From contig NZ_JAPSIW010000010.1 in assembly GCF_031178505.1 (NCBI RefSeq), positions 1 through 32,928 on the forward strand: 32,928 nucleotides of DNA, given 5' to 3'. The stretch comes from Streptomyces sp. GTDB lineage: Bacteria; Actinomycetota; Actinomycetes; Streptomycetales; Streptomycetaceae. The position numbers and the translations under genes are program-made. Shown piece after piece: positions 622 to 9,389 of this stretch; positions within the stretch are counted from its first letter, which is position 1, and every line of letters starts with the position of its first letter. Below the pieces are notes generated by a model. The model ran no database searches, was not told the DNA's origin, and was given only the letters and a program-made list of their open reading frames with translations.

Positions 622-632
622 CCTGTGGATAA
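622..632 (-). promoter_or_regulatory. TTNTCCACAGG element, paaA/DUF5819 intergenic region
   Basis: On the minus strand this reads TTATCCACAGG. Its first nine bases are a perfect consensus DnaA box. The same 11-mer with one free base occurs at 5170-5180 and 8110-8120, always in an intergenic region that also carries the PaaR-type operator, and always upstream of the operator with respect to paaA, paaN or bkdA. Here it directly precedes the possible -35 of paaA. Which protein binds it is unknown. Confidence 0.5.
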
Positions 633-3380: not shown

Positions 3381-5078
3381 TTACGCCTGGCGGCGGACTT
3401 CCACCACCCGGAAGCGGTTGGCGACGAAGGCGGCGTCGCACAGGGCCGCGTTGGCGGCGGGGTTGCCGCCGGAGCCGTGGAAGTCGGAGAAGGCGGCCGT
3501 CTGGTTGACGTAGACGCCGCCCGTGAGGTTGAGGGAGAGCTGGGCGGACTCCTCCAGGCAGACCTCCTCGACGGCGCGCTCGACGTCGGGGGAGGTGGTG
3601 TAGGCGCCGACCGTCATGGCGCCCTTCTCGCGGACCGTGCGGCGCAGCAGGTCCAGGGCGTCGGTGGTGGAGTCGACGGAGACGGCGAAGGAGACGGGGC
3701 CGAAGCACTCGGAGAAGTAGGCGGCCTCGGCGTCGGGCTTGGAGCCGTCGAGCTTGACCATGACCGGGGTGCGGACGACGGCCTCGGGGAAGTCGGGGTT
3801 GGTGATCTCGCGGGAGGCGAGGGCCACCTCGCCGAGGTCGGCGGCGGCCTCCAGGCGGGCCTTGACGTCCGGGTTGACCAGGGCGCCGAGCAGGGCGTTG
3901 GCACGCGCGTCGTCGCCGAGCAGGCCGCCGACCGCCGTCGCGAGATCGGCGACGACCTCGTCGTACGACCTGGGCCCCTGGTCGGTGGTGATGCCGTCGC
4001 GGGGGATCAGCAGGTTCTGCGGGGTGGTGCACATCTGGCCGCTGTACAGGGACAGCGAGAACGCCAGGTTGGAGAGCATGCCCTTGTAGTCGTCGGTGGA
4101 GTCGATCACCACCGTGTTGACGCCGGCCTTCTCCGTGTACACCTGGGCCTGGCGGGCGTTCGCCTCCAGCCAGTCGCCGAAGGCGGTGGAGCCGGTGTAG
4201 TCGATGATCCGGATTTCGGGGCGGACCGCCAGGGTCTTGGCGATGCCCTCGCCCGGCCGCTCGGCCGCGAGCGCGACCAGGTTCGGGTCGAAGCCGGCCT
4301 CGGCGAGCACCTCGCGGGCGACCCGCACGGTGAGGGCGAGCGGCAGCACGGCGCGCGGGTGGGGCTTCACCAGGACGGGGTTGCCGGTGGCGAGCGAGGC
4401 GAACAGACCCGGGTAGCCGTTCCAGGTGGGGAAGGTGTTGCAGCCGATGACCAGGGCGATGCCGCGGCCGACCGGGGTGAACTCCTTGCTCAGCTCCAGC
4501 GGGTCGCGCTTGCCCTGGGGCTTGGACCAGGCGGCGCGGCCGGCGGGGGTGCGGGTCTGCTCCGCGTACGCGTAGGCCACGGCCTCCAGACCGCGGTCCT
4601 GGGCGTGCGGTCCGCCGGCCTGGAACGCCATCATGAACGCCTGACCGCTGGTGTGCATGACGGCGTGGGCGAACTCGTGGGTGCGGGCCGAGATCCGGCC
4701 GAGGATCTCCAGGCAGACGAGGGCGCGGGTCTCCGGACCGGCGTCGCGCCAGGCACCCATGCCGGCGCGCATGGCGGGCAGCAGGACGTCGAGGTCGGCG
4801 TGCGGGTACTCGACGCCGAGCGCCGGGCCGTAGGGCGAGACCTCGCCGCCGGTCCAGCCGTCGGTGCCGGGCTGGTCGAGCTCGAAGCGGCTGTTCAGCA
4901 CGGCCTGGTGCGCGGCGAGGCCGGCCGCCGCGTCGAGGGAGCCGTCCTCCCCGTACGCCTTGGGGTGCTCCGGGTGGGGCGACCAGTAGGCGCGGGTGCG
5001 GATCGTGTCGAGTGCCCGATCGAGCGTGGACCGGTGCTTCTCGGCCAGACGGTCGGTGGTCAGCTGAGCGGTGGCCAT
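3381..5078 (-). CDS. paaN: Phenylacetic acid degradation aldehyde dehydrogenase PaaN
   Basis: 565 residues, matching the long PaaN form (about 550 residues) without a fused hydratase. In the pathway it oxidises the ring-opened semialdehyde to the CoA-linked acid. Seen: an aldehyde dehydrogenase fold with GCNTFPTWNGYPG (212-224), the cofactor-side segment DYTGST (293-298), and the catalytic cysteine in SGQMCTTPQN (Cys350). The C-terminal part contains the ECFGPVSF motif of the family. In PaaZ-type organisms the hydratase is fused; here a separate enoyl-CoA hydratase would be needed and is not in the window. The ATG at 5076-5078 begins MATAQ. It is divergent from paaH, and the promoter spacer holds a PaaR-type operator. 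The gene ends with TAA, rare in this window. Confidence 0.93.
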   Translation of the reverse strand: MATAQLTTDRLAEKHRSTLDRALDTIRTRAYWSPHPEHPKAYGEDGSLDAAAGLAAHQAVLNSRFELDQPGTDGWTGGEVSPYGPALGVEYPHADLDVLLPAMRAGMGAWRDAGPETRALVCLEILGRISARTHEFAHAVMHTSGQAFMMAFQAGGPHAQDRGLEAVAYAYAEQTRTPAGRAAWSKPQGKRDPLELSKEFTPVGRGIALVIGCNTFPTWNGYPGLFASLATGNPVLVKPHPRAVLPLALTVRVAREVLAEAGFDPNLVALAAERPGEGIAKTLAVRPEIRIIDYTGSTAFGDWLEANARQAQVYTEKAGVNTVVIDSTDDYKGMLSNLAFSLSLYSGQMCTTPQNLLIPRDGITTDQGPRSYDEVVADLATAVGGLLGDDARANALLGALVNPDVKARLEAAADLGEVALASREITNPDFPEAVVRTPVMVKLDGSKPDAEAAYFSECFGPVSFAVSVDSTTDALDLLRRTVREKGAMTVGAYTTSPDVERAVEEVCLEESAQLSLNLTGGVYVNQTAAFSDFHGSGGNPAANAALCDAAFVANRFRVVEVRRQA

Positions 5079-5127
5079 GGATGGACCAACTCCTCATCGA
5101 GCTGGGCAGGGAGACGCGTACGGAGTT

Positions 5128-5155
5128 AGAGTAACCGAACGATCGGTCGGGACAA
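5128..5155 (-). promoter_or_regulatory. Probable paaN promoter with the operator in its spacer
   Basis: On the minus strand, TTGTCC (5150-5155) and TACTCT (5128-5133) are 16 bases apart. The operator fills the spacer and overlaps both boxes slightly, the geometry of a repressor that excludes RNA polymerase. The boxes are only fair matches to consensus, so the promoter is inferred. Confidence 0.5.
5133..5150 (+). promoter_or_regulatory. PaaR-type operator between paaN and paaH
   Basis: AACCGAACGATCGGTCGG, identical over 18 bases to the paaA operator in opposite genomic orientation. It lies 53 bases before the paaH start and 55 bases from the paaN start, so one site can control both divergent units, including paaR itself at the end of the paaH unit. 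Confidence 0.78.
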
Positions 5156-5169
5156 GGGGGTCCGTCGAT

Positions 5170-5180
5170 CCTGTGGAAAA
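5170..5180 (-). promoter_or_regulatory. TTNTCCACAGG element, paaN/paaH intergenic region
   Basis: On the minus strand this reads TTTTCCACAGG. It lies 19 bases from the operator, upstream of the inferred paaN -35 box, the same relative order as in the paaA and bkdA regions. Confidence 0.45.
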
Positions 5181-5202
5181 CCCATCGGGGAGGATCACTC
5201 CT

Positions 5203-6792
5203 ATGAGCGCCAACGTGACCGTCAGGGGGAGCGACGACGTGACCGCCCGTGAGTCCGCCGCCCTCGCCGTGGCCGCCCTCGCACAGGACCGGACCGTCGC
5301 CGTCGTCGGCACGGGCACCATGGGCCAGGGCATCGCCCAGGTCGCACTGGTCGCCGGTCACCCCGTGCGCCTCCACGACAGTGCCCCCGGCCGGGCCGTG
5401 GAGGCCGTCGCCGCCATCGGTGCCCGGCTCGACAGGCTCGTGGAGAAGGGCCGCCTCGACGGCGCCGCCCGGGACGCGGCAGTCGGCCGGCTGCACGCCG
5501 CCGCCGACCTGGAGGAACTGGCCGACGCCGCGCTCGTCGTCGAGGCGATCGTCGAGCACCTCCCCGTCAAGCGGCAGCTCTTCGCCGACCTGGAGAAGGT
5601 CGTCGGCGACGACGCGGTCCTCGCGACCAACACCTCCTCCCTGTCCGTCACGGCCATCGCGGGCGGTCTGCGGCTGCCGGGCCGCTTCGTCGGGCTGCAC
5701 TTCTTCAACCCGGCGCCGCTCCTGCCCCTCGTGGAGGTCGTCAGCGGCTTCGCCACCGATCCGGACGTCGCCACGCGCGCGTACGTCACGATGAAGGCCT
5801 GGGGGAAGACGCCCGTGCGCTGCGCGGACACCCCCGGGTTCATCGTCAACCGCATCGCACGGCCCTTCTACGCCGAGGCCCTGCGGGTGTACGAGGAGGG
5901 CGGGGCCGATCCGGCGACGATCGACGCGGCGCTGCGCGAGTGCGGCGGGTTCCGGATGGGCCCGTTCGAGCTGACCGACCTCATCGGGCAGGACGTGAAC
6001 GAGGCCGTCACCCGCTCGGTGTGGGAGGCCTTTTACCAGGACCCGAAGTTCACGCCCTCGCTCGCGCAGCGGCGGCTCGTCGACTCGGGCCGTCTCGGAC
6101 GCAAGGCGGGGCACGGCTGGTTCTCGTACGCCGAGGGCGCCGAGCGGCCCGAGCCGCACACCGCGCCGCCGGCCGAGGCGCCCCGTCGGATCGTCGTCCA
6201 CGGCGACCTGGGACCCGCCGAACCGCTCGTCGGCCTCTTCGAGGAGGCCGGGATCGGCGTCCGGCGCACCGCGCGGGCCGGCGACGGACACGGGTACGTG
6301 GCCCTGCCGGGCGGCGGTGAGCTCCACCTCGCCGACGGCGAGACCTCCTTCGAGCACCCCACCGAGGACATCGTCCACTTCGACCTCGCGCTCGACTACG
6401 CGGCAGCGAGCCGGATCGTGCTGTCGAGCCGTGAGGACATCGCCCCCGAGGTCCTCACCGAGGCGGTCGGGCTCTTCCAGGCGCTCGGCAAGCGGGTCTC
6501 GGTCATCGGTGACGTGCCCGGCATGATCGTGGCCCGTACGGTCGCGATGCTGGCCGATCTCGCGGCCGACGCGGTCGACCGGGGCGTCGCCACCGCCGAG
6601 GACGTCGACACCGCGATGCGACTGGGTGTGAACTACCCGGCCGGACCGTTGGAGTGGGCGTCGAAGGCGGGTCACCGGCGACTGTCCGGTCTGCTCCACT
6701 CGCTGCACGAGCGGTACCCGACGGGCCGGTACGCCCCGAGCCCCGCCCTCATGCGGCGTGCCTACGCCGAGGACCGGGAGGACGCCTCGTGA
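5203..6792 (+). CDS. paaH: 3-hydroxyacyl-CoA dehydrogenase of the phenylacetate pathway
   Basis: 529 residues from the ATG at 5203, chosen because GGGGAGGA (5187-5194) lies eight bases before it; the longer reading from 5071 would run through the operator. Cytoplasmic NAD-dependent enzyme expected to oxidise 3-hydroxyadipyl-CoA to 3-oxoadipyl-CoA. Seen: Rossmann motif GTGTMGQG (36-43), VEAIVEHLPVK, TNTSSLS, and the catalytic-His segment GLHFFNPAP (His166). Two C-terminal 3HCDH domains follow: one with TPGFIVNRI and GPFELTDLIGQDVN, and a second near residues 440-525 with VPGMIVARTV and NYPAGPLEWA. The duplicated C-terminal domain and the length of just over 500 residues are typical of PaaH rather than of the 280-residue beta-hydroxybutyryl-CoA enzyme. 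Its stop overlaps the paaR start. Confidence 0.9.
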   Translation: MSANVTVRGSDDVTARESAALAVAALAQDRTVAVVGTGTMGQGIAQVALVAGHPVRLHDSAPGRAVEAVAAIGARLDRLVEKGRLDGAARDAAVGRLHAAADLEELADAALVVEAIVEHLPVKRQLFADLEKVVGDDAVLATNTSSLSVTAIAGGLRLPGRFVGLHFFNPAPLLPLVEVVSGFATDPDVATRAYVTMKAWGKTPVRCADTPGFIVNRIARPFYAEALRVYEEGGADPATIDAALRECGGFRMGPFELTDLIGQDVNEAVTRSVWEAFYQDPKFTPSLAQRRLVDSGRLGRKAGHGWFSYAEGAERPEPHTAPPAEAPRRIVVHGDLGPAEPLVGLFEEAGIGVRRTARAGDGHGYVALPGGGELHLADGETSFEHPTEDIVHFDLALDYAAASRIVLSSREDIAPEVLTEAVGLFQALGKRVSVIGDVPGMIVARTVAMLADLAADAVDRGVATAEDVDTAMRLGVNYPAGPLEWASKAGHRRLSGLLHSLHERYPTGRYAPSPALMRRAYAEDREDAS

Positions 6793-7382
6793 CCACGGCC
6801 AGACGCGACACCTACACCCCCGAGACACTGCTCTCGGTCGCGGTGCGGGTCTTCAACGAGCGCGGTTACGACGGCACCTCCATGGAGCACCTGTCCAAGG
6901 CGGCCGGGATCTCCAAGAGCTCGATCTACCACCACGTCGCGGGCAAGGAGGAGCTGCTGCGGCGGGCGGTCAGCCGGGCGCTCGACGGGCTGTTCGCCGT
7001 CCTGGACGAGCCGGACGCCGGCCGCGGCCGGGCCGTGGACCGGATCGAATACGTCACCCGCAGGACCGTCGAGGTGCTCATCGCCGAGCTGCCGTACGTG
7101 ACGCTGCTGCTGCGGGTGCGGGGCAACACGTCCACCGAGCGGTGGGCGATGGAGCGGCGCCGCGAGTTCGACCACCGGGTGGCCGAGCTGCTGAAGGCGG
7201 CCGCCGCCGAGGGGGATCTGCGGGCCGACGTGGACAGCCGGCTCGCCACCCGGCTCCTCTTCGGCATGATCAACTCGCTGGTGGAGTGGTACCGGCCCCA
7301 GCAGGCGACCGCCGAGGAGCGGGACGAGCTCGCCGGGACGGTCGTACGGCTGGCCTTCGACGGGCTGCGGACGGCCCGCTGA
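6789..7382 (+). CDS. paaR: TetR family repressor, probable PaaR
   Basis: 197 residues from the GTG that overlaps the paaH stop (GTGA); a longer in-frame reading exists but lies wholly inside paaH. An N-terminal TetR helix-turn-helix is clear at about residues 14-62 (RVFNERGYDGTSMEHLSKAAGISKS, IYHHVAGKEELL). The remainder is a helical ligand-binding domain ending in a TetR_C-like segment. Translational coupling to paaH and the operator at 5133 make it the natural candidate for the repressor that recognises ACCGA-N4-TCGGT and releases it on binding phenylacetyl-CoA, the known PaaR effector in other bacteria. Since its own unit carries the operator, it should be self-limiting. The assignment rests on context rather than a diagnostic motif. 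Confidence 0.82.
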   Translation: MTTARRDTYTPETLLSVAVRVFNERGYDGTSMEHLSKAAGISKSSIYHHVAGKEELLRRAVSRALDGLFAVLDEPDAGRGRAVDRIEYVTRRTVEVLIAELPYVTLLLRVRGNTSTERWAMERRREFDHRVAELLKAAAAEGDLRADVDSRLATRLLFGMINSLVEWYRPQQATAEERDELAGTVVRLAFDGLRTAR

Positions 7383-7472
7383 CCACCTGAATCCCGGGCC
7401 GCCGGGTGCCTGCGGGCCCCCGGGGCCGGGGCGGGCCTGCCTTCCGGGGCCCATGGTTCGCGTGCGCCCCTC

Positions 7473-8051
7473 TCAGGGCTGCGGGTCCGCGTCCAGGTCC
7501 GTCTCCTCGAAGACCAGCAGCGTGCGCGTGGACAGCACCTCGGGGATCGACTGGAGGCGGGTGAGCACCAGCTCCCGCAGCGTCCGGTTGTCCGGCGTGT
7601 GGACCAGCAGCAGGACGTCGAAATCCCCGCTGACCAGCGCGATGTGCGCGGCTCCCGGCAGCTTTCTGAGCTGCTCGCGCACCGTCCGCCAGGAATTCTG
7701 GACGATCTTGAGCGTGATGTAGGCGGAGGCGCCGTGGCCCGCCCGCTCGTGGTTGACCCGGGCGCTGAACCCGCGGATCACCCCGTCGTCGATGAGCCGG
7801 TTGATCCGCGCGTAGGCGTTGGCCCGCGAGACGTGCACCCGCTCGGCCACGGACCGTACCGAGGCACGGCCGTCCGTCTGGAGCAACCGCAGGATGTCGC
7901 GGTCGATCGCGTCGAGCGGCCGCGCCGGGGCGGCGTACGCCGGCGTGCCCACCGGGGTGCTCAGGAGTTCACCCGGGGGTTCGGCCCCGGCCTCGTCCCG
8001 TTCCCCGCCCGGAACCGTGCTCCGGTCGACGGCCATTTGTTCATCCGCCAT
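7473..8051 (-). CDS. bkdR: Lrp/AsnC family regulator, probable BkdR
   Basis: 192 residues from the ATG at 8049-8051, with a G-rich ribosome site (GGGGGG) upstream. Residues 1-45 form a poorly conserved Pro/Gly/Glu-rich extension. Residues 46-95 (LDAIDRDILRLLQTDGRASVR, then VHVSRANAYARINRL) are the Lrp-type helix-turn-helix. Residues 105-185 are the RAM effector domain (ALVSGDFDVLLLVHTPD). In Streptomyces a regulator of this family is transcribed divergently from a bkd cluster and is called BkdR; the same arrangement is seen here, with 186 bases between the two starts. It probably senses branched-chain amino acids or their oxo acids and acts on bkdABC and itself. The inverted repeat at 8095-8120 is a candidate site. 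It is convergent with paaR. Confidence 0.85.
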   Translation of the reverse strand: MADEQMAVDRSTVPGGERDEAGAEPPGELLSTPVGTPAYAAPARPLDAIDRDILRLLQTDGRASVRSVAERVHVSRANAYARINRLIDDGVIRGFSARVNHERAGHGASAYITLKIVQNSWRTVREQLRKLPGAAHIALVSGDFDVLLLVHTPDNRTLRELVLTRLQSIPEVLSTRTLLVFEETDLDADPQP

Positions 8052-8094
8052 GTCCCCCCGCCTCTCTCCGCTGGACGACCTGCTCCTATCCCAG

Positions 8095-8120
8095 GCTGTG
8101 GAGAACCGTTTGTCCACAGG
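8095..8120. promoter_or_regulatory. Inverted pair of TCCACAG elements in the bkdR-bkdA spacer
   Basis: Arms CTGTGGA (8096-8102) and TCCACAG (8113-8119) are separated by ten bases. The right copy, TTGTCCACAGG (8110-8120), matches the elements at 622-632 and 5170-5180 and contains the Streptomyces DnaA-box form TTGTCCACA. The left copy is TTCTCCACAGC in reverse. It overlaps a possible bkdA promoter: TTGTCC at 8110-8115 and TAGCCA at 8134-8139, 18 bases apart. It could bind BkdR, DnaA or an unknown factor. Confidence 0.5.
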
Positions 8121-8151
8121 CTGGAGGTGCCTGTAGCCAAAATGCCTCCAC

Positions 8152-8169
8152 GACCGAACAATCGGTAGG
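8152..8169 (+). promoter_or_regulatory. PaaR-type operator upstream of bkdABC
   Basis: GACCGAACAATCGGTAGG. Both half-sites of ACCGA-N4-TCGGT are intact; 15 of 18 bases match the paa operators. It lies 68 bases before the bkdA start and just downstream of the inferred promoter, so it could act as a roadblock. This places the dehydrogenase operon in the same regulon as paa by sequence. Confidence 0.6.
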
Positions 8170-8237
8170 TGAGGCGCGCCACACTCGCGCCACCCGCCTT
8201 CGGGTCTTGTGCCCGCTCCCACGAGGAGGTGGACTCG

Positions 8238-9389
8238 TTGCAACAGCGCAGTTCGACAGTCCAAGAGCCGCCCGGTGACACCGCCGCCTACCGGCCCACC
8301 CCGCCGCCGGCGTGGCAGCCGCGCACCGACCCCGCGCCGCTGCTGCCCGAGACCGAGCCGCTGCGCGTGCTCGGTACGGACGCCGTGGCCGACGCCGACC
8401 CCGCGCTGCTGCGCCGGCTGTACGCGGAGCTGGTCCGCGGCCGCCGGTACAACGCCCAGGCGACCGCCCTCACCAAGCAGGGCCGGCTCGCCGTCTACCC
8501 GTCCACCACCGGACAGGAGGCGTGCGAGGTCGCGGCCGCGCTCGCCCTGGAGGAGCGGGACTGGCTCTTTCCCTCCTATCGGGACACGCTGGCGGCCGTC
8601 GCCCGAGGTCTCGACCCCGTGCAGGCCCTGACGCTGCTGCGCGGCGACTGGCACACCGGTTACGACCCGCGCGAGTACCGGGTGGCGCCGCTGTGCACAC
8701 CGCTCGCCACGCAGTTGCCGCACGCCGTGGGCCTCGCCCACGCGGCCCGGCTCAAGGGTGACGACGTGGTCGCGCTCGCCATGGTCGGCGACGGCGGCAC
8801 CAGCGAGGGCGATTTCCACGAGGCGCTGAACTTCGCCGCCGTGTGGCAGGCCCCGGTGGTGTTCTTCGTGCAGAACAACGGCTTCGCGATCTCCGTGCCG
8901 CTGGCCAAGCAGACGGCGGCCCCCTCCCTCGCCCACAAGGCCGTCGGGTACGGCATGCCGGGCCGCCTGGTCGACGGCAACGACGTGGTCGCCGTCCACC
9001 AGGTGCTGACCGAGGCCGTGGCCCGTGCCCGGCGCGGTGGCGGTCCCACCCTCGTGGAGGCCATCACCTACCGGATCGACGCCCACACCAACGCCGACGA
9101 CGCCACCCGCTACCGCGCGGACGGCGAGGTCGAGGCGTGGCGGGCCCACGACCCGATCCTGCTGCTGGAGAGGGAGCTGACCGAGCGCGGGCTGCTCGAC
9201 GAGGACGGCAGGCGCGCGGCGGCCGAGGCCGCCGAGACGATGGCCGCGGAGCTGCGCGAGCGGATGAACGCCGACCCGGTGCTCGACCCGATGGCGCTGT
9301 TCTCCCACGTGTACGCGGAGCAGACCGCGCAGCTGCGCGAGCAGGCGGCCCAGCTGCGGGCCGAGCTCGAAGCCGAGGGTGAGGCGTGA
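8238..9389 (+). CDS. bkdA: Branched-chain 2-oxoacid dehydrogenase E1 alpha, cluster 1
   Basis: 383 residues if it starts at the TTG at 8238, preferred because GAGGAGG (8223-8229) ends eight bases before it; an in-frame GTG at 8229 overlaps that site. The protein pairs with E1 beta to decarboxylate 2-oxo acids on thiamine diphosphate and acylate the E2 lipoyl arm. Seen: the thiamine diphosphate motif from GDG (184-186) to NN (213-214), the GQEA segment near 92-95, and YRIDAHTNADDATRYR, where the serine phosphorylated in mitochondrial E1 is replaced, as in other bacteria. Residues 1-45 form a Pro-rich leader. Substrate choice among branched-chain and aromatic oxo acids cannot be read from sequence. 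Its operon carries a PaaR-type operator, unlike cluster 2. Confidence 0.9.
   Translation: MQQRSSTVQEPPGDTAAYRPTPPPAWQPRTDPAPLLPETEPLRVLGTDAVADADPALLRRLYAELVRGRRYNAQATALTKQGRLAVYPSTTGQEACEVAAALALEERDWLFPSYRDTLAAVARGLDPVQALTLLRGDWHTGYDPREYRVAPLCTPLATQLPHAVGLAHAARLKGDDVVALAMVGDGGTSEGDFHEALNFAAVWQAPVVFFVQNNGFAISVPLAKQTAAPSLAHKAVGYGMPGRLVDGNDVVAVHQVLTEAVARARRGGGPTLVEAITYRIDAHTNADDATRYRADGEVEAWRAHDPILLLERELTERGLLDEDGRRAAAEAAETMAAELRERMNADPVLDPMALFSHVYAEQTAQLREQAAQLRAELEAEGEA

Follow-up and report, generated by a model that had tools for sequence, protein, structure and literature searches.

Which protein reads the short element that stands beside each PaaR-type operator in a Streptomyces catabolic locus, and does it act on the promoters there? 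We addressed this question in a window of 32,928 nucleotides (the whole stretch of DNA analysed), in which an earlier note had described an 11-mer, TTNTCCACAGG, accompanying three such operators. Its three sites, at 622–632 (minus strand), 5170–5180 (minus) and 8110–8120 (plus), are exactly the matches found in the window, and each lies beside a PaaR-type operator on the upstream side relative to paaA, paaN or the E1-alpha gene (the earlier note's bkdA). The number of copies expected by chance, previously put at about 0.02, is 0.01 for the window in our recalculation, and three copies were reached in none of 100 shuffles. The gaps of 42, 19 and 31 bases given between element and operator could not be reproduced; counted from the 14-base operators, they are 43, 22 and 32 bases. 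The features are as follows, the promoter hexamers at paaA, paaN and bkd being putative and read from conservation.

1–550, minus: paaA, 5′ part, running off the window (TIGR02156, 273.8 bits with E 1.4e-81; this truncated piece stays under the model's cut-off of 280)
565–578, no strand: PaaR-type operator of paaA, ACCGAACGATCGGT as read on the minus strand (exact pattern match)
591–596, minus: putative −10 of paaA, CACCAT, at offset 36 relative to the initial T of the box
615–620, minus: putative −35 of paaA, TTGACA, two bases after the box
623–632, minus: DnaA-type box of paaA, TTATCCACAG (11-mer 622–632; exact match, conservation)
3381–5078, minus: paaN (TIGR02288, 962.9 bits)
5128–5133, minus: putative −10 of paaN, TACTCT, at offset 47 relative to the initial T of the box
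5134–5147, no strand: PaaR-type operator of paaN, occupying the spacer of the putative promoter
5150–5155, minus: putative −35 of paaN, TTGTCC (alignment of relatives)
5171–5180, minus: DnaA-type box of paaN, TTTTCCACAG (11-mer 5170–5180; exact match, conservation)
5203–6792, plus: 3-hydroxyacyl-CoA dehydrogenase of PaaH type, divergent to paaN (NF006124 above its cut-off, TIGR02279 below)
6789–7382, plus: TetR-family regulator (TetR_N, TetR_C_24), a PaaR candidate by neighbourhood
7473–8051, minus: Lrp/AsnC-family regulator, the earlier note's BkdR (HTH_AsnC-type, AsnC_trans_reg)
8096–8105, minus: further DnaA-type box in inverted orientation, TTCTCCACAG, separated from the bkd box by 4 bases
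8110–8119, plus: DnaA-type box of the E1-alpha (bkdA) operon, TTGTCCACAG (11-mer 8110–8120; exact match, conservation); the TTGTCC within it may double as a −35
8134–8143, plus: conserved TAGCCAAA(A/T)T at bkd, with possible −10 hexamers TAGCCA (8134) and CAAAAT (8138)
8153–8166, no strand: PaaR-type operator of the E1-alpha operon, ACCGAACAATCGGT (exact pattern match)
8229–9389, plus: 2-oxo acid dehydrogenase E1 alpha (the earlier note's bkdA), putative start (TIGR03181 above its cut-off, a model named pyruvate dehydrogenase E1 alpha)

A scan of positions 5000–8300 for the sigma-70 consensus found no promoter, and no PaaR family model matched the TetR protein at 6789–7382. At the level of sequence, PaaR-type palindromes at the paa promoters next to a TetR gene show the pattern of a PaaR regulon.

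The unit of the element and its operators

The first nine bases of the element, TTNTCCACA, had been said to fit a DnaA box, and they agree with the published Streptomyces consensus, in which the third base is variable with G or A preferred. The eleventh base differs between species and was discarded as part of the motif; since it is not conserved in relatives, we take the 10-mer TTNTCCACAG as the unit. The statement that the window holds no further copy thus applies to the 11-mer but fails for this 10-mer core, which has an inverted fourth copy (TTCTCCACAG) at 8096–8105 on the minus strand. Together with the third (bkd) box it makes an inverted pair, the only paired or clustered boxes in the window. 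Genome-wide, there are 31 copies of the 11-mer (4 of the reversed pattern), three of them within this 33 kb, and 48 copies of the 10-mer (5 of the reversed pattern).

Exact matches to ACCGA-N4-TCGGT occur in the window only at 565–578, 5134–5147 and 8153–8166. The palindrome ACCGAACNATCGGT, a pattern picked after the three sites had been seen and counted alone among the N4 variants, has three copies in the draft genome (7.27 Mb, 84.6% complete), all in this window and each with a box. In S. pristinaespiralis and C. glutamicum the regulator PaaR is likewise of TetR type, and the putative S. pristinaespiralis site given in a review, AACGA-N4-TCGGT, resembles the operators described here; the passages on PaaR available from that review make no mention of a DnaA box (PMC10933834). 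In the present locus the operator also occurs at the E1-alpha operon. There the 14-mer ACCGAACAATCGGT, with its own centre, is exact in 79 of 81 loci, so PaaR may also control the branched-chain acid dehydrogenase as part of its regulon. In the paaA operator region (561–578), two palindromes overlap (ACCGACCGATCGTTCGGT), their registers offset by four bases; relatives show this arrangement too.

Conservation and placement on the three promoters

The earlier note had held that lack of conservation in related species would speak against its reading; the element turned out to be strongly conserved in relatives. Of 150 genomes examined in the genus (our own included), 145 contained TTNTCCACA followed after 15–45 bases by the operator; the reversed control occurred in none. 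In a class-wide sample, this composite was found in 21 of 22 genomes of the genus and in 1 of 224 others, the single case being taken as chance by eye. A family-level sample yielded it in 26 of 28 genomes of the genus, in every one of the 36 genomes from six sister genera and in none of 57 genomes from ten others.

We then aligned 80 named loci and the window, anchoring the alignment on the operator rather than on the box. Among named paaN loci, the nearest 80 comprise 78 titled Streptomyces or [Kitasatospora] papulosa and two titled Microtetraspora glauca and Actinobacteria bacterium. The Microtetraspora glauca record (L068) encodes a PaaN 92% identical to that of the window and carries the same three boxes; it may be mislabelled. 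The exact box is kept at 79 of 79 bkd, 77 of 80 paaN and 39 of 54 paaA loci, and the G that follows the 9-mer at 79/79, 76/80 and 39/54, respectively. The three deviating paaN loci (L107, L109 and L117) show one-letter changes. Among the 15 deviating paaA loci, four (L062, L079, L087 and L117) have one changed letter with the box in place; the other 11, seemingly one clade, retain only a weak core, 48–49 bases from the −10 instead of 36–37. In the aligned rows (79 for bkd, 78 for paaN and 33 for paaA), box letters are 99–100% conserved, as compared with 78–86% between box and operator, a comparison biased in favour of the box because rows that had two or more box mismatches, or a different spacing, were dropped. 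At paaN, the third base of the box varies between T, G, A and C while the other letters are constant; the element thus behaves like a binding site. The inverted pair at bkd, TGTGGANAA-N4-box, is present in 56 of 79 loci.

The position of the box relative to the promoter is nearly rigid. In all 23 distinct paaA promoters of the genome loci in which the pattern was recognised (two further rows being second, upstream boxes), a TTGACA-like −35 begins 12–13 bases after the box start, and a −10-like CACCAT or GACCAT follows at 35–37 bases. The operator starts 44 bases from the box start in seven of these promoters and 54–56 bases from it in sixteen, depending on the clade. Because the operator shifts by ten bases while the spacing from box to hexamers stays constant, the box appears tied to the promoter; judging from these sequences, a shift of one helical turn is tolerated for the paaA operator. 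Across 54 paaA promoters, the core TCCACAG lies 36–37 (43 cases), 48–50 (12), 59–60 (9) or 70 (1) bases from the −10, at stations about one helical turn apart. At paaN, the distance from box to TACTCT is 47 bases in 75 of 77 cores counted. At bkd, TAGCCA follows the box by 24 bases in the 78 cores counted; the −10 is ambiguous there, and this promoter falls outside the placing at 37 or 47–50. A role of the box as a general −35 hexamer was rejected, as the −10-like hexamer at promoter-type boxes starts at least 26 bases after the box, and the box as −35 is kept as a possibility for bkd alone.

Placing before −10-like hexamers across genomes

The preferred distances recur at boxes dispersed over the chromosome. 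In a first set, comprising 35 of the 48 boxes of our own genome and all 50 of a second (G057), hexamers of the form TANNNT peaked at offsets of 36–39 and 47–51 from the box start and were absent at 40–45 and 52–57. Offsets of 36–38 or 46–50 were then fixed as a prediction before two fresh genomes were tested. The first (G093, 50 boxes) gave 8 hits with 1.03 expected (P 1e-5) and the second (G080, 67 boxes) 16 hits with 1.29 expected (P 7e-13). Since the four genomes share some orthologous promoters, these P values overstate independence. Hexamers inside the gaps of the first set appeared once each at 53, 55 and 57 (G093) and at 43 (G080). Over the four genomes, 28 of 201 boxes have a hexamer at 36–39, and no −35 consensus was found between box and hexamer in these. 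A hexamer at either station (about 37 or 47–50) follows 43 of the 201 boxes and is absent from the remaining 158.

Several of these promoter-type boxes precede the same gene in different genomes, genes being named by Pfam, with partial proteins used and some start codons guessed. The box lies at offset 49–50 before recA in all four genomes, and at offset 37 before a DUF2252 gene in all four and an aldo/keto reductase gene in three. M48 peptidase and DUF1707 genes follow such boxes in two genomes each, and uvrC, a RecD2-type helicase gene, an Mfd-like gene (UvrB-interaction domain), rimP, argS and others in one genome each. In all four recA promoters (L013:1501, L147, L283 and L335), the box is followed downstream by TTGTCAGTGG before TAGCGT; this resembles the RecA-NDp/PafBC motif.

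An E. coli-like double-box reading was rejected for promoter-type boxes, which show no pairing signal: a second box lies within 40 bases of 9 of 43 promoter-type boxes as compared with 73 of 158 others, and 34 of the 43 are single. Among the 158 boxes that have no hexamer at either station, 21 are followed, precisely three bases beyond the 9-mer, by an inverted partner matching in at least 6 of 8 letters (TTNTCCACAGGCTGTGGA type), a pair geometry that recurs.

Place on the chromosome, candidate binders and interpretation

The composites lie close to the replication origin, 41–92 kb from dnaA in the 13 genomes of the genus in which both are on one contig and 54–115 kb from it in ten genomes of sister genera. 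In many genomes that were searched, paaA is present in a second type or solely in a distant one. Thirty paaA loci were examined among 38 match rows, six second copies and two further pieces being left aside. The box is present at 17 of 18 loci of the near-origin type (the exception being L205), including 10 of the 11 measured at 40–72 kb from dnaA, and at none of 12 loci of the other type (L208–L219). Nine of the distant loci could be measured, all at least 3.5 Mb from dnaA (two contigs look rotated), and none of the nine has the box. In two distant-type loci (L211 and L219), the PaaR-type operator and a promoter of TTGACA type are retained without the box. Since distant copies are also more divergent (71–80% identity to the paaA of the window vs 82–92% for the near-origin type), place and lineage are confounded in this comparison. 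Among six sister genera that lack the composite (paaN identity 57–77%), the operator is present in five and the box in none, and the one paaN measurable among them (G397) lies 2.67 Mb from dnaA and has no box. Data on place and on lineage both agree with a box that would be useful only near the origin.

As candidate binders, the earlier note had listed BkdR, a catabolic activator and DnaA. DnaA is the best supported, given the crowding of the element around oriC, its oriC-like flanking bases and the published consensus, and we regard it as the best candidate, though not as proven. In three chromosomes, 20 of 48, 16 of 50 and 19 of 67 copies of TTNTCCACAG lie within 150 kb of oriC, where 1.9, 1.8 and 2.7 are expected; after clusters are collapsed, the counts are 11/37, 9/38 and 10/53, with 1.5, 1.4 and 2.2 expected (6 kb on either side of dnaA–oriC excluded and two boxes on the second contig of G057 omitted). 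For S. coelicolor, TTGTCCACA has been published as the high-affinity DnaA box (PMC4285127), and the boxes of Streptomyces oriC share with the element the 9-mer and the favoured flanks, G before and G after. In five genomes, G follows the 9-mer in 68 of 86 oriC boxes and precedes it in 51 of 86; the paaA and bkd boxes of the window have C and T, not G, before the 9-mer. G precedes the 10-mer in 24 of 28 promoter-type and 133 of 173 other boxes, and G at base 11 is found in 23 of 28 promoter-type boxes vs 107 of 173 others. By our own reading of a table of E. coli DnaA ChIP sites, 9 of 13 distinct double boxes have a G directly after the stronger of the two boxes (PMC11317965).

The explanation we favour, with slightly better than even confidence, is that the element is a DnaA box and that DnaA, bound directly ahead of the −35 or, at bkd, possibly over it, would modulate transcription beside repression by PaaR. 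Positioned at about −44 (paaA) or −55 (paaN), DnaA would touch RNA polymerase and probably help it, and the TetR-type PaaR candidate would repress from an operator inside or downstream of each promoter, shutting it from the spacer or the start region. At bkd, DnaA would sit on or beside the −35, and as the box may overlap that hexamer, DnaA could also repress there. A further activator besides DnaA may act at the boxes. Expression would then depend on relief from PaaR together with DnaA at the promoter, which would tie phenylacetate and branched-chain acid catabolism to the replication state. DnaA as the binder, its action on transcription and the sign of that action (activation at paaA and paaN) are what we infer from sequence and position. 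Several observations speak against this reading. Most promoter-type boxes are single, although E. coli DnaA prefers pairs (PMC11317965); Streptomyces DnaA reportedly requires two boxes as well. The exact box has gone from 15 of 54 paaA promoters, the bkd promoter does not fit the common offsets, 158 of 201 boxes lack a −10-like hexamer at the two stations, four hexamers in the fresh genomes fell into the gaps of the first set, and five sister genera have the operator but no box. A wider version, which we put forward tentatively and hold to be possible rather than probable, is that DnaA, or a partner sharing its reading head, serves as a genome-wide activator from single boxes in Streptomyces and the six sister genera. 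It would act from a station at about −44 or one turn further up, on promoters with a weak −35 (recA, DUF2252, aldo/keto reductase) and on the origin-proximal paa and bkd operons, whose expression would follow the replication state.

Two other accounts also take the boxes seriously as binding sites, and we consider either of them unlikely, though deserving of weight. The boxes could bind DnaA chiefly as titration sites near oriC that regulate replication, the promoters being only convenient intergenic places and their transcription staying unaffected. The crowding around oriC and the multi-box clusters fit this account, as does the absence of the box from paaA copies at least 3.5 Mb from dnaA (0/9) and from the G397 paaN 2.67 Mb away, and origin-proximal DnaA-box clusters reportedly restrain replication in S. 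coelicolor, a result attributed to Smulczyk-Krawczyszyn in 2006. However, titration requires neither a near-fixed distance to promoter hexamers nor the placing at 37 or 47–50 at dispersed promoters, and the distant paaA copies that speak for it are of a divergent type as well, which leaves place and lineage confounded. Alternatively, an activator with DnaA-like recognition might occupy the single promoter-type boxes (at about −44 or −55), leaving the clusters near oriC to DnaA. Promoter-type boxes are indeed mostly single, with others often paired, many of them are far from oriC, and they favour G at base 11 more strongly. Yet the same 10-mer and the same preceding G occur in promoter-type, other and oriC boxes, no candidate gene for such an activator is known, and the paa and bkd boxes are part of the oriC neighbourhood.

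A site for BkdR or another regulator specific to PaaR-controlled operons is very improbable. All three ACCGAACNATCGGT operators carry the element, and an Lrp/AsnC gene lies beside one of them, but the genome has 31 copies, including those at recA, aldo/keto reductase and DUF2252 genes and in multi-box clusters. BkdR was rejected as the binder because the element is spread over unrelated promoters and clusters near oriC instead of being confined to bkd or the genes of that regulon; the site is also asymmetric, unlike the usual Lrp sites. Frequent occurrence at unrelated promoters had itself been named beforehand as a point against the element, and the box does occur at such promoters, recA and others among them. 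A special tie to PaaR therefore holds in part: the three operators carry the box, but so do recA and other genes. The box is also not essential to the operator, as five sister genera have a PaaR-type operator at paaN without it. Chance, or plain inheritance of a conserved intergenic stretch, is scarcely credible: neighbouring bases are partly conserved too, but the letters of the box stay constant whereas its third base at paaN varies and the stretch separating it from the operator drifts, and chance would have to account for 0/100 shuffles and for a composite present in 145 of 150 genomes and in 36 of 36 from six sister genera.

If the favoured reading is correct, the replication initiator would directly set the output of catabolic operons, and solely for origin-near copies. 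These operons supply and drain acyl-CoA precursors, which are relevant to membrane lipids and polyketides. TTNTCCACAG followed by a −10 about 37 or 47–50 bases on would provide a candidate list of DnaA-controlled Streptomyces promoters, and the placing would make a tie between metabolism and replication in Streptomyces testable with a few promoter mutants.

Parts of this picture have known counterparts. In S. coelicolor, H69, H24 and D78 are said to be origin-proximal multi-box DnaA clusters, known already and studied as replication control; they are alike in lying near oriC and in DnaA-box sequence, whereas the paa and bkd boxes keep phase with a promoter and are coupled to a PaaR-type operator. 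The oriC itself is a long array of boxes, in contrast to the single or paired boxes on catabolic promoters here. DnaA boxes as such are known already, and so is DnaA as a transcription factor (PMC8203912). The DnaA-bound promoters of E. coli (nrdA, polA, purH, nrdD and others) are similar in having a box near the promoter and in including some repair genes (PMC11317965, PMC8203912). They differ in that DnaA prefers, in vivo, pairs of boxes 2–3 bases apart (PMC11317965), while the boxes described here are mostly single, at preferred distances from the −10 and on catabolic operons. The inverted pair at bkd is spaced by 4 bases, and pairing of the E. coli type at 2–3 bases is not seen at promoter-type boxes. 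A precedent for a tie between acyl-CoA catabolism and DnaA is PrpR of M. tuberculosis, which represses dnaA (PMC3982210); there the regulator acts on dnaA, whereas here DnaA would act on catabolic genes. Among titles and beginnings of abstracts from a collection sparse in subscription journals, none describes DnaA boxes at paa or bkd promoters or a Streptomyces DnaA regulon. The placing at 37 or 47–50 was likewise not found in the literature searched, including the available parts of PMC3411110, PMC13270200 and PMC13186573. Matches to the motif letters were apparent primers and unrelated papers, two of the latter dealing with DnaA in E. coli or Caulobacter.

Finally, the number of boxes per genome is exceptional in one case. 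Among 24 genomes searched, G400 (genus g117) holds 342 copies of TTNTCCACAG in 6.6 Mb, with 5 for the reversed control, which is about five times the next highest count (69).
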